From IMG/VR virus record IMGVR_UViG_3300020715_000014, positions 1 to 26,428 of that record: a stretch of DNA of 26,428 nucleotides; one strand, written 5' to 3'. The translations under genes and the position numbers were made by a program. The DNA is from a virus. Of the stretch, positions 35-6,628 are shown in pieces. The stretch's first letter is position 1; each line of letters opens with the position of its first letter. A model generated the notes under the pieces. It saw only the letters and a program-made list of their open reading frames with translations. It had not been told where the DNA came from and did not search any database.

Positions 35-241
35 ATGTTCAATCTTAAAGAGGGCGATTGGGTGCAGTATAGGGGCAAGTTTGCTAGGGTGCATGGTGCA
101 ACCAAAGCGGGCAGACACCTTATAGAAACCGCACCTAACGAGGATAATTTTGTTTATAGGCATTGGGTCAAGCCTTTAAGTATCACACCATTAGACCCCG
201 CAGTTAGTAGCATTTTAGAGAGTATTTACGAAGTAGTTTAA
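35..241 (+). CDS. Small protein of unknown function, SH3/KOW-like feel
   Basis: A 68-residue protein. The frame is open to the left edge, so the gene could begin at the TTG at 8 or before the window. I prefer the ATG at 35 because MFNLKEGDWVQYRGKFARV reads like a natural N-terminus: the EGDWVQYRGKFARV stretch resembles the first strands of small beta-barrel (KOW/Tudor-like) folds, whereas the residues before it do not look conserved. No ribosome binding site is evident. The gene ends in Val-TAA inside the first GTTTAAAC palindrome (236-243). I do not recognise the family. Confidence 0.6.
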   Translation: MFNLKEGDWVQYRGKFARVHGATKAGRHLIETAPNEDNFVYRHWVKPLSITPLDPAVSSILESIYEVV

Positions 242-265
242 ACACAACCAACGAAAGGCAACATC

Positions 266-1345
266 ATGTCAGATTTATATAAGTCGCTATCACTTAACGA
301 CACCGCTAACCTAATCTTAGCAGTTGGCGATACAACCACAGTATTAGCACAAGGCGAGATGGGGATAGGTAAGTCCTCTATTCTGTCCATCTTGAAATCT
401 AAACTAGCAGACACACACCATTTTTGTTATGGTGATATGACAACCAAAGATGTAGGGGATTTCCTAGTCCCTAAGATACGCAGTTTAAACGGCACAGAAG
501 TTTGTTCATTTATTCCTAACGAGGAGTTTGGATTTCACTTTGATAAGCCCATTGTTTTAATGCTTGATGAGATCGGCAAGGCAAGTAAGGCAGTTATGAA
601 TGCTTGTCTTAGATTGATGTTAGAACGCAAGTTAGGCACATTTGAATTGCCCGAGGGTAGCATAGTATTCGCCACCACCAACCTAGCCAACGAAGCTATT
701 GGGGATAATTTACCACCACACGCACGAAACAGAATTTCAGTTGTGAAAGTCCGCAAGCCATCATCAGACGAATGGATTGAGTGGGCATTAGATAACGACA
801 TAGCCCCCGAAGTATTGATGACAGTCAAACAGTTTCCGCAGATGCTTGCATCATTCGAGGATTTCAATAACGCAAGTGATAACGAGTATATCTATGACCC
901 CCGCACACCCCGCCCCGCATTTTGCACCCCACGCAGTTTAAACAAGGCATCGGACATCATTAAAAAGTCCAAGCATTTAGGCGTTGACATCATGGCACAC
1001 GCATTAAAAGGCACGATTGGAAACAGAGCCACATACGATATGCTCTCCATCATTCAATTAACAGATGAGCTACCAACATGGGAAGCCATCATTAAAGAGC
1101 CAAGCAAAACGAAAGTGCCTAATAGCCCAAGTGCCGTATGTATGCTAGTGTATTCCGCTATTCAGCAAGTAGAAAAGGATTCTATAAATAAGTGGGTCGA
1201 ATATATGGGTCGCTTATCTAAGGAAGCACAAGGGCTATTCGCAACATCAGTAATGCGAACATCTAAGAAAACTACAGTCGGCACATCACAGGGGTTTATT
1301 AAATGGGCTACCGCAAACAATTACCTATTCGCACAGACAGTTTAA
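266..1345 (+). CDS. MoxR-like AAA+ ATPase
   Basis: A 359-residue AAA+ ATPase. Walker A is GEMGIGKS (30-37), Walker B is IVLMLDE (96-102), a sensor-1-like ATTN follows, and the arginine-rich PPHARNR segment is typical of the MoxR/RavA branch. These ATPases usually remodel a partner protein and are commonly encoded beside a von Willebrand A protein, as here two genes downstream (1917-3077), so I infer the two products act as a pair on an unknown client. AAAGG lies 9 bases before the ATG. Two GTTTAAAC copies encode Ser-Leu-Asn (482-490 and the copy at 936), and a third supplies the Val-TAA end. The fold is confident; the role in a phage is not known. Confidence 0.88.
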   Translation: MSDLYKSLSLNDTANLILAVGDTTTVLAQGEMGIGKSSILSILKSKLADTHHFCYGDMTTKDVGDFLVPKIRSLNGTEVCSFIPNEEFGFHFDKPIVLMLDEIGKASKAVMNACLRLMLERKLGTFELPEGSIVFATTNLANEAIGDNLPPHARNRISVVKVRKPSSDEWIEWALDNDIAPEVLMTVKQFPQMLASFEDFNNASDNEYIYDPRTPRPAFCTPRSLNKASDIIKKSKHLGVDIMAHALKGTIGNRATYDMLSIIQLTDELPTWEAIIKEPSKTKVPNSPSAVCMLVYSAIQQVEKDSINKWVEYMGRLSKEAQGLFATSVMRTSKKTTVGTSQGFIKWATANNYLFAQTV

Positions 1346-1350
1346 ACGCT

Positions 1351-1557
1351 ATGCACAATATCCCTAAACGCAGAGCCAAGAAGATCGAAGATGAGATTCT
1401 TAGGTCTATGCAATACCGCATGAGCCAAGCCACTACACCCGCAGAAAAGCGAGCAGTAGTGGTAGAAGCAAACCCATTGTTCTATGTATTCGGTGAACAA
1501 CGCAAGGTGTTTAAACCATACCTAACATACGAGGAAAATTATGAACGAAGCTATTAG
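1351..1557 (+). CDS. Small basic protein, unknown
   Basis: A 68-residue protein. The frame is open upstream to an ATG at 1303, but that start would overlap the ATPase gene by 43 nt; the ATG at 1351 lies just after the ATPase stop and its GTTTAAAC, matching the other joints here. The N-terminal third is basic and predicted helical (PKRRAKKIEDEILRSMQYRM); the C-terminus contains VFGEQRKVFKP, with a further GTTTAAAC at 1509 encoding Phe-Lys. No clear ribosome binding site. It overlaps the next small gene by 17 nt. Function unknown. Confidence 0.6.
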   Translation: MHNIPKRRAKKIEDEILRSMQYRMSQATTPAEKRAVVVEANPLFYVFGEQRKVFKPYLTYEENYERSY

Positions 1558-1687
1558 AATTATTGATATGTTGGTGGGTTTGATCTACGATTTATACCCT
1601 GACGAGGAATACGAGGAATTGTACGGGATTAAAGATAAGATTGAACAAGCCCAACAATTTGTAGATAAACAGGCACAGGGAGTTTAA
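1541..1687 (+). CDS. 48-residue acidic helical protein, unknown
   Basis: ATG at 1541 preceded by GAGGA with short spacing; 48 codons end in Val-TAA within the GTTTAAAC at 1682. The protein is acidic, with Asp-Glu-Glu-Tyr and Glu-Glu-Leu-Tyr in the middle and a helical C-terminus. It fills the gap between the 1351 and 1690 genes, overlapping the former by 17 nt and ending 2 nt before the latter. The tight packing, good ribosome binding site and Val-TAA end shared with its neighbours support it. Function unknown. Confidence 0.6.
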   Translation: MNEAIRIIDMLVGLIYDLYPDEEYEELYGIKDKIEQAQQFVDKQAQGV

Positions 1688-5699: not shown

Positions 5700-5718
5700 A
5701 CGCACCATTTTGGTGCGT
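5700..5718 (+). terminator. Hairpin, possible weak terminator
   Basis: A perfect 7-bp stem ACGCACC/GGTGCGT with a 5-nt ATTTT loop lies just after the small membrane gene. No T tract follows, so it would be a poor intrinsic terminator; it could be an RNA processing or stability element separating the sigma gene from upstream transcripts. Confidence 0.45.
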
Positions 5719-5721
5719 GTG

Positions 5722-5730
5722 TGGTATAAT
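5722..5730 (+). promoter_or_regulatory. Extended -10 promoter for the sigma-like gene
   Basis: TGGTATAAT is a consensus TATAAT with the extended TGn element. No good -35 box lies 16-18 bp upstream, which fits an extended -10 promoter. Transcription would start near 5737, about 20 nt before the ATG at 5758. Confidence 0.6.
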
Positions 5731-5758
5731 AGGGGCTTATCCACAAAATAAGCCCCTA
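5730..5758. promoter_or_regulatory. 11-bp inverted repeat enclosing a DnaA box
   Basis: Perfect arms TAGGGGCTTAT (5730-5740) and ATAAGCCCCTA (5748-5758) flank a 7-nt centre. The site runs from the last base of the -10 box to the first base of the sigma gene start codon, so a bound protein would block initiation; it also lies where a ribosome binding site would be. TTATCCACA at 5737-5745 is a perfect DnaA-box 9-mer. Possible operator, DnaA site or 5' UTR hairpin. Confidence 0.6.
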
Positions 5759-6327
5759 TGATTGATAACGACATTCTAAGCGACTACCTACAATCTCTGT
5801 ATGGTATAGAACCCCTCTCAATCGAGGAGGAACACCGACTAGCCAAGCTAGTGCAACAAGGTGATGAGAAAGCCCTAGACACCCTAGTAACCCACAACCT
5901 ACGATTCGTGGTCTATATCGTCAGGAAGATGACCGCATGGAATCATGGCAAAGTGCCTGTTGAGGATATGGTGGCGATGGGTAACGAAGCCCTACTTGTA
6001 TCGGCTAGGCGATGGAAACCAACCAATAATTCTAGGTTAGCTACCTATGCCAAGACATTCATTGAAAAGGGGGTGCGTAGGGATTTAGATAACACCGCAA
6101 ACATCATCAGGCTACCTATAAACATCATGGAAGCGATTAAGCGACTAAGCTATAACGACAGGGCATTAACCCAAATACTAGGTCGTAAGCCCAAAACCAA
6201 AGAATTAGCCAAGATAATGCAGGTATCCGAAGCAAGGATAGCTGAATTGCAAGGATTCATGGCAAGAGAACCTATTTCCATAGACCATTTAAACACCGAG
6301 AGAGTAGCAGATGAGCAAGATGATTGA
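5758..6327 (+). CDS. Sigma-70-family factor lacking region 4
   Basis: 189 residues resembling primary-type sigma factors over regions 1.2, 2 and 3. Region 1.2 is about 9-40 (YLQSLYGIEPLSIEEEHRLA). Region 2 is about 45-110, with HNLRFVVYIVRKM, VEDMVAMGNEALL and a 2.4-like LATYAKTFIEKGVRRDL. RLP followed by LGRKPKTKELAKIMQVSE matches region 3, and EPISID the region 3.2 finger. The protein then stops: the -35-reading, beta-flap-binding region 4 is absent. Such a factor would depend on -10 or extended -10 contacts. Its own promoter is of the extended -10 type. No ribosome binding site precedes the ATG. It could redirect host RNA polymerase to phage promoters. Family assignment is firm; specificity is unknown. 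Confidence 0.88.
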   Translation: MIDNDILSDYLQSLYGIEPLSIEEEHRLAKLVQQGDEKALDTLVTHNLRFVVYIVRKMTAWNHGKVPVEDMVAMGNEALLVSARRWKPTNNSRLATYAKTFIEKGVRRDLDNTANIIRLPINIMEAIKRLSYNDRALTQILGRKPKTKELAKIMQVSEARIAELQGFMAREPISIDHLNTERVADEQDD

Positions 6328-6628
6328 GTTGAACCCTGAACAAACAAGAGCATACAACCACTACATTATGGCAAGGGATAAGGTAAACAAGAAAGCTAAA
6401 AATTGGGTTAGGGCATCAGATATCTCCCATACAGTAGATATAGTAGGTTTAAACCACCCCCTGTATGTAGTAAATGATGTGTATGTGGAGTATGTGGAAG
6501 CATTTAAACAATGGCTTAGTGTAGAACCCCGCTTTAGGAACGATGAACGCATGAGGTCGTCTAGGGGGGATTATGGAGTGCCAGCAGATAATTGGGAAGA
6601 AAAGCCCTCTAAAGTTAAGGAATTATGA
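6311..6628 (+). CDS. Unknown protein, 105 residues
   Basis: The ATG at 6311 overlaps the sigma gene by 17 nt; an in-frame ATG at 6320 is an alternative. The product is hydrophilic, with LNPEQTRAYNHYIMARDKVN at the N-terminus and a charged C-terminus. The last GTTTAAAC copy of the module (6447) and an ATTTAAAC at 6502 lie inside. The overlap suggests coupled translation with the sigma gene. No known motif. Confidence 0.65.
   Translation: MSKMIELNPEQTRAYNHYIMARDKVNKKAKNWVRASDISHTVDIVGLNHPLYVVNDVYVEYVEAFKQWLSVEPRFRNDERMRSSRGDYGVPADNWEEKPSKVKEL

Follow-up and report, generated by a model that had tools for sequence, protein, structure and literature searches.

An exact 8-bp word recurs through the early genes of the window

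The window analyzed here, a viral record of 26,428 bp (IMG/VR, IMGVR_UViG_3300020715_000014), carries an array of the 8-bp palindrome GTTTAAAC in rightward genes; our subject is this array and its relation to a phage-encoded SprT-like protein (PHROG 6361). Exact copies number 24, compared to a mean of 0.86 in 100 dinucleotide shuffles (largest shuffle, 3). This agrees with an earlier sequence-only reading of the window, which had counted 20 copies in the first 6.5 kb and 4 in the next 20 kb and had judged them far above chance. Twenty of the 24 lie at 236-6454, with the other 4 across the remaining 20 kb. The claim that the array is confined to one module fits the former and is slightly overstated, because the 4 outlying copies still exceed the 0.61 expected (P 3.5e-3). 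Sites of GTTTAAAC, given without strand, and the associated genes are as follows.

236..243, site 1: Val-stop of open reading frame (ORF) 8-241
483..490, site 2: Leu-Asn, MoxR-like gene
936..943, site 3: Leu-Asn, MoxR-like gene
1340..1347, site 4: Val-stop of MoxR-like gene
1509..1516, site 5: Phe-Lys, ORF 1303-1557
1682..1689, site 6: intergenic, immediately 5' of the ATG at 1690
1909..1916, site 7: Val-stop of ORF 1690-1914
2092..2099, site 8: Leu-Asn, VWA gene
2419..2426, site 9: Leu-Asn, VWA gene
2839..2846, site 10: Leu-Asn, VWA gene; present in 21/24 array genomes
3072..3079, site 11: Val-stop of VWA gene
3355..3362, site 12: Leu-Asn
3629..3636, site 13: Phe-Lys
3812..3819, site 14: Phe-Lys
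4155..4162, site 15: Phe-Lys
4605..4612, site 16: Phe-Lys
5076..5083, site 17: Val-stop of ORF 4869-5081
5308..5315, site 18: Leu-Asn
5523..5530, site 19: intergenic
6447..6454, site 20: Leu-Asn
9273..9280, site 21, outlying: primase-helicase gene; same column in 14/19 genomes
14670..14677, site 22, outlying
20943..20950, site 23, outlying
23816..23823, site 24, outlying
266..1345, + strand: MoxR-like ATPase gene; a carrier of sites, system membership not implied
1887..3077, + strand: DUF2201 putative metallopeptidase/VWA-like gene; a carrier of sites
1..7, + strand: left contig end; SprT-like gene (PHROG 6361) predicted about 1.1-1.7 kb further left, by the offset in relative L005

The product of 266..1345, which we take to be a MoxR-like ATPase, had no Pfam match at E 0.001. 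By gene calls, 18 of the first 20 copies lie inside ORFs, as 8 Leu-Asn, 5 Phe-Lys, and 5 Val-stop of a gene, and 2 are intergenic (1682 and 5523); the earlier tally of 8, 6, and 6 is therefore right for Leu-Asn, its two sixes presumably taking in the two intergenic copies. The word is essentially exact, given six one-mismatch neighbors in the whole of the first 6.6 kb. From 236 to 5523, spacing of the 19 copies is more even than random, with a coefficient of variation of 0.35 compared to a null mean of 0.93 (P < 0.0001). The combination of a site and a gene start (GTTTAAACATGGCACTAACCGCAGAACAACGCAT) appears twice, ahead of one coding stretch and of the next, at 1682-1719 and 1909-1946.

The array in relatives and in unrelated viruses

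The window opens inside the array, which in longer relatives starts further to the left, close to where leftward and rightward genes diverge. Among the best 80 of 300 viral loci matching the window VWA protein, a clean split was seen between 23 loci (L005-L022, L031-L035) with 14-40 copies each and 57 with 0-2. Seven longer records were divided around a block of 8.7-11.0 kb that was defined as reaching from 0.8 kb ahead of the SprT-like gene to the family 12 gene. The block holds 20-34 copies; outside it, 0-1 sites lie to the left, 0-8 in the rest of the early arm, and 0-4 beyond. The window array is the right-hand part of this array of about 9-11 kb known from relatives, in which the median gap between sites is 336 bp for the window group.

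A pattern scan for viral stretches with three spaced copies of GTTTAAAC found 63, of which 57 show none of seven window proteins. The exact 8-letter word is scattered through the genes of many unrelated bacterial viruses, with median gaps in phage arrays mostly of 160-520 bp. In bacterial contigs L189, L213, L222, L223, and L225, the word recurs at a 61- to 75-bp period, and these are probably CRISPR (clustered regularly interspaced short palindromic repeat) repeats. A CRISPR repeat was considered for the phage arrays as well and rejected: five of the eight bacterial contigs examined look CRISPR-like, and a CRISPR period of about 60-75 bp is not that of the phage arrays. Stretch L150 looks like a different repeat, the 3' flank being identical in 10/10 copies.

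The word co-occurs with a SprT-like gene

The motif-found stretches L163-L165 share one gene, which encodes a SprT-like protein and lies also near the array head in the window's relatives. When the 80 VWA-chosen loci were searched for this gene (tblastn, 10 queries, E 1e-4), it was recovered in 22 of the 23 array carriers and in none of the 57 others; the contig of the lone exception, L018, ends only 164 bp before the VWA gene. A second sample, chosen by the SprT-like gene itself, comprised 120 distinct viral loci, of which 118 were scored (L180 and L368 were left out): 107 with a KQ..R..K tail, 10 with another tail, and 1 partial. The 107 tail-bearing loci hold 1257 copies of GTTTAAAC compared to 26.7 expected, with at least one copy in 103 and enrichment at P < 0.01 in 96, whereas the control palindrome CAAATTTG numbered 28 compared to 48.9 expected. 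Grouped at 60% identity, 23/25 clusters with the KQ..R..K tail and 0/6 with another tail are enriched.

Nineteen cultured-phage records, out of lists of 173 and 163, gave a corresponding picture. All nine non-actinobacterial phages with the tail hold 2-34 copies of GTTTAAAC (expected numbers, computed for three of them, were 0.55, 1.45, and, for 50 of the 72 kb of Pan1, 0.08). All five actinobacterial phages with the tail hold none and instead have 16-39 copies of a different word, GTTTACAC (Yang, 20; UNTPL, 39; Zeta1847, 22; SuMoo, 16; Tweety19, 27), found in Yang on both strands (14 and 6). The five phages with a replaced tail hold no GTTTAAAC and 0-1 GTTTACAC, and a reversed control word occurred 0-1 times per record. 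The named hosts span E. coli to a cyanobacterium, which argues against a host factor as the reader. The HeidiAbel gene region gave no match to E. coli genomes. Sites span the whole genome in Pan1, R5C, and Yang, structural genes included in Yang and Pan1, and are evenly spaced in all three (P 0.004, 0.03, and 0.0001, respectively).

The word also lies close to the gene. All six of the related proteobacterial phages have a copy whose end is 10-19 bp away from the SprT-like start codon on its 5' side, with TATAAT shortly upstream in three. Of 71 HExxH loci, 21 contain a copy in the upstream 150 bp, compared to 7.6 expected. Among ORFs of at least 50 amino acids within pieces from 26 array lineages, chosen for having the SprT-like gene, no other protein family occurred in more than 5 lineages, except an apparent antisense reading of the SprT-like gene (12). 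Together, these samples show statistically that word and SprT-like protein pair near-perfectly, with another word accompanying the versions in actinobacterial phages and none where the tail is a replacement. The sequence-only reading had assigned the array to the module, which is not supported in view of the 57/80 VWA relatives with 0-2 copies and the 57/63 motif-bearing stretches without the seven window proteins. It had named related modules lacking the motif as evidence against the array; such modules are common (57/80), because the motif follows the SprT-like gene and not the module.

Several observations weigh against a strict pairing or against its interpretation. Copies are missing from two tail-bearing clusters, L327 and L343, and from loci L348 and L372. 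For the six other-tail clusters, chance expectation is just 0.02-0.54 copies, so that absence has little power; the 2 copies in L359, one of the six, are not significant. A strict regular expression leaves 2 enriched loci, L287 and L300, among the 10 with another tail; each has KQSTR and belongs to an enriched cluster. Many loci are related, two of the five queries for the SprT-chosen sample came from motif-chosen contigs, and some loci lie on contigs of other samples; the samples and counts are therefore not independent. In 13 of the 51 motif-chosen pieces that hold 10 or more copies, no SprT-like gene was found inside the piece: three (L168, L170, and L173) have one at another locus of the same contig, L150 is the different repeat described above, and nine remain. 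The SprT-like gene lies outside the window contig itself, and even spacing was significant in just 15/28 loci. GTTTACAC is not a palindrome, which makes a simple symmetric dimer uncertain. At L068:5-136, the edge of a non-carrier piece, there is a SprT-like-looking ORF fragment (HEMTH) without the tail.

Selection acts on the DNA word

In codon-aligned orthologues, retention of GTTTAAAC was compared to that of 8-mers of the same genome pair and phase. At 80-85% identity the word was kept in 92% compared to 25% expected, and below 60% identity in 29% compared to 1.7%; site columns are gained and lost between genomes. Exact-word usage was scored at columns that 7 or more genomes use, among sequences with the site's residues. 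For the MoxR and VWA genes and the two genes that follow, 133/133 such sequences use exact GTTTAAAC, and for two later genes 31/41, giving 164/174 for all genes together. The full residue set is absent from every non-carrier compared (18 sequences for MoxR and VWA, 8 for each of the two genes after them being the sample); in the non-carrier L025, a single VWA column reads Leu-Asn, encoded by other codons. In an example column, carriers have Ser-Leu-Asn and others Thr-Ile-Asp. Judging by exact codon usage and residue changes at the sites, the proteins encoded there appear to have been shaped by the DNA word.

Among 421 distinct window-group sites, 334 lie inside called ORFs. A purine stands at position -5 in 84-92% and a pyrimidine at position +12 in 78-83%, in each rightward frame and in intergenic sites. 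Leftward ORFs contain 28 sites, and in one of their frames, with 10 sites, just 30% have a pyrimidine at +12. Other lineages lack this -5/+12 preference. The flanks are weakly mirror symmetric and their mirror positions do not covary within sites, which argues for a roughly two-fold symmetric double-strand site and not a hairpin. Overall, as judged from these alignments, selection is on the DNA word. The sequence-only reading had proposed selection on DNA or RNA and not on one peptide, and had suggested looking at synonymous sites in homologues; both the proposal, at the DNA level, and the check are borne out by the 133/133 exact usage and by flanks shared across all frames and intergenic copies.

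The SprT-like protein and its C-terminal tail

The SprT-like gene lies at L005:6262-6849, and L006 also has one. In VWA, L005 and L006 are 96 and 95% identical to the window, and their SprT-like proteins are mutually 48% identical. The L005 protein matches the Pfam SprT-like family PF10263 (E 6.2e-10, above cut-off) and PHROG 6361 (E 2.8e-44). Across six proteins tried, only that of L005 passes for PF10263, three fall below the cut-off, and L256 and L237 have no match; PHROG 6361, annotated as unknown function, matches all six proteins compared to it, with L256 (1.5e-12), of the divergent class II described below, and also replaced-tail L250. In NCBIfam, none of six proteins was above cut-off. 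A sequence search of solved structures gave RuBisCO as best match at E 0.11, judged to be chance, and Spartan at E 0.32-0.41. The AlphaFold model of the L005 protein (predicted local distance difference test [pLDDT] score of 94) resembles over residues 3-113 the SprT domain of Spartan (6mdx; Foldseek E 5e-3; Z 8.2, root mean square deviation 3.4, 98 residues), a fold match only just above the level of chance arrangements. PHROG 6361 is found in cultured phages of Escherichia, Klebsiella, Pseudomonas, Burkholderia, Dinoroseobacter, Pseudanabaena, Methylophilales, and actinobacteria.

The tail consensus, at the C terminus, is KKQxTRxxKxxCxxCGxxxRxSxKW. HExxH is present in 74 of the 107 tail-bearing loci and absent in 31 class II loci, with L306 and L364 truncated. 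Class II proteins (L256 and relatives) keep N-terminal R, E, and L residues, YPHA, and KQxTRxxK..C, and their predicted secondary structure is similar (model pLDDT 81). The class II lineage L256-L287 has dense GTTTAAAC, at about 2.5 per kb in 31 pieces. Site density in class II is 2.51 per kb compared to 0.73, a comparison biased by flanks of 6 or 10 kb and by the clustering of sites near the gene. As a whole lineage without HExxH keeps dense sites, proteolysis cannot be the universal function.

Sister clades and other features of the window

Several sister clades of the VWA phage family (L026-L083) lack the SprT-like gene and have their own palindromes across the same early region, e.g., ATACTGTCAGACAGTAT, ATAACAATGTTAT, GTTAGTC-N-GACTAAC, and TATTAAAC-N-GTTTAAT, partly placed tens of base pairs after a TTGACA/TATAAT-like promoter and before the ribosome site; some sister loci showed none of their own. 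The first genes of five other-clade operons were considered as regulators and had no informative Pfam or PHROG matches; proteins that bind the sister-clade palindromes were not found. In array phages, a divergence zone of about 1 kb without clear genes holds further iterated palindromes (GTTGCGGTGCAAC, TGCACCAATATGGTGCA, and TTCCACAATGTGGAA) and looks origin-like. It lies, in oriented coordinates, as follows.

G005 6690-7790 (L104): divergence zone
G001 15100-16000 (L085): divergence zone; others likewise

In the window, 5758-6327 corresponds to sigma-70 regions 1.2-2-3 and 16156-16458 is weakly region-4-like, about 10 kb apart, as if from a split sigma factor. Window 20450-20509 matches the Rfam DUF2815 RNA (RF03084, 73.3 bits), just 5' of the ORF at 20507, and was the sole match in an Rfam scan of five sources.

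Proposed role of the array and alternative explanations

Because word and protein go hand in hand, the word is most likely a docking site of the SprT-like protein, a little-studied relative of DNA-repair proteases. We infer that GTTTAAAC is probably bound by the phage-encoded protein of PHROG 6361, via its C-terminal tail. A phage protein as binder had been among the suggestions of the sequence-only reading, and the pairing makes a phage-encoded binder likely. In the window group, the SprT-like gene is among the first of the early rightward operon, and from this gene the sites continue through coding sequence. The protein would therefore load in cis onto the early DNA that encodes it, at fairly even intervals, and may regulate itself via the site at its own promoter region.

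Even spacing, whole-genome spread, and occurrence in phages with and without a found integrase suggest coverage of DNA and not a lysogeny switch. The function we favor, tentatively and by analogy with a proposal made for the antirestriction protein ArdC, is that the bound protein would occupy phage DNA to shield it from, or clear it of, host DNA-bound proteins. Somewhat more speculatively, this could be a widespread phage system in which an evenly repeated exact tag addresses a SprT-type protein, the tags dictating amino acids of the genes that host them, and the bound protein strips or blocks restriction enzymes and the like. No stretch of phage DNA would then be far from a bound SprT-type protein, and proteolysis would act in most lineages, with occupation alone, and denser tags, in the lineage without the active site. 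A nucleoid-like role ranks third among functions and appears unlikely.

Second among functions, less likely but a serious rival, is a roadblock, in which the bound protein, as in stoperators, would repress transcription of the early operon and its own promoter. In its favor, window-type arrays begin close to the first genes of the rightward early operon and become sparser downstream, a site (in three phages with TATAAT) precedes the SprT-like start in the six proteobacterial phages, and the HExxH-less lineage retains its sites. The sites are, however, palindromic in most lineages and mostly in genes, unlike the asymmetric, oriented L5 stoperators; they cover the whole genomes of Pan1, R5C, and Yang; HeidiAbel_Bas97 has a separate CI-like repressor; and an integrase (PF00589/PF00239) was not found in 11/11 window-type records, mostly fragments. 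It is more improbable that another protein, of host or phage, reads the word and that the SprT-like gene is one target or a passenger. Such a reader would be compatible with a link that rests on co-occurrence and with a family comparison covering ORFs of at least 50 amino acids inside the pieces. Yet the word differs between host-group versions of the SprT-like protein and is missing from phages with a replaced tail, no other family is widely common to the 26 lineages, and the phages' hosts are very different.

A mark for DNA modification or restriction would suit a near-exact 8-mer with few one-mismatch neighbors, which we take to be the PmeI site, but is very improbable given the extended symmetric flanks of the window group, the even spacing, a paired protein that is not a methyltransferase, and the non-palindromic GTTTACAC of sister versions. 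An artefact of peptide, codon usage, or chance would be in keeping with some copies at conserved residues and with the 31/41 usage in the two later genes; copies in all three frames and between genes, the 133/133 usage in the four core genes, and the 92% retention already contradict it. The suggestion of the sequence-only reading that the module's sigma factor reads the word finds no support, since the palindrome is exact in every frame and, the antisense reading of the SprT-like gene aside, no other family exceeds 5/26 lineages. Sigma-factor promoters were likewise rejected, as there is no asymmetric -10 element and GTTTAAAC lies inside genes in three frames; a promoter scan of window 1-10000 found 18 compared to a shuffle mean of 23.1. 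Pfam matches among 39 early families (16 with matches, including sigma domains and SprT-like) included no helix-turn-helix (HTH) repressor. Hairpin promoters of N4-type virion RNA polymerase, an enzyme of about 3,500 amino acids, were also rejected: no ORF of that size was present among those above 330 amino acids in G005, G008, and G014, GTTTAAAC cannot form a hairpin on itself, and its flanks do not covary.

If the SprT-like protein is the reader, PHROG 6361 gains a predicted DNA-binding specificity, and an iterated word otherwise without an owner is explained. With the changed word GTTTACAC and tails replaced in nature, the claim lends itself to tests in E. coli. The array would also be a clear case of a DNA site shaping protein sequence in virus genes.

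Comparison with known systems

HIP1 of cyanobacteria is an abundant, GC-rich 8-bp palindrome that lies in genes. Like HIP1, GTTTAAAC is an iterated 8-bp palindrome in genes; HIP1, however, occurs host genome-wide, and we know of no cognate phage protein for it. With SPRTN/Spartan, the L005 protein shares the SprT-like Pfam match and the resemblance of its model to 6mdx, and it differs in a distinct tail paired with an 8-mer and in one phage lineage without HExxH. Cellular SprT-like members are not known to us to have sequence-specific sites, and the phage protein, if the proposal holds, would be the first of the SprT family known to us with sequence-specific dispersed sites.

ArdC of plasmid R388 is described as a DNA-binding antirestriction protein of metalloprotease fold whose protease activity is not needed (PMC7213743). 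The SprT-like protein resembles it as a metalloprotease-fold protein of a mobile element with, presumably, DNA binding. ArdC differs in binding single-stranded DNA (ssDNA) non-specifically and in its other N-terminal domain; in the six SprT-like proteins, the ArdC N-terminal ssDNA-binding domain had no Pfam match up to E 1. To our knowledge, ArdC has no site arrays.

A description of the pairing of word and SprT-like protein was not found in the titles and opening abstract lines of the matches listed in the open PubMed Central (PMC) literature, subscription papers and preprints lying outside it. The cluster AZ paper names a SprT-like gene as shared, its main text, as far as seen, being without "repeat," "motif," or "promoter" (PMC8758107), and the accessible part of the OM43 phage paper has no mention of SprT (PMC10580990).

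L5 stoperators are 13-bp asymmetric sites that follow the direction of transcription and lie in promoters and short spaces between genes, where a monomeric HTH-domain repressor binds them (PMC9283540). The parallel drawn by the sequence-only reading stands for dispersed protein sites and fails for orientation and intergenic placement: the copies of GTTTAAAC are numerous and dispersed, but the word is a palindrome and most copies lie in ORFs. As in the cluster A mycobacteriophages, many dispersed sites, some also at promoters, would serve one phage protein; unlike L5 stoperators, the sites here are mostly palindromic and within genes, occur also in records without a found integrase, and are paired with a protein that is SprT-like.

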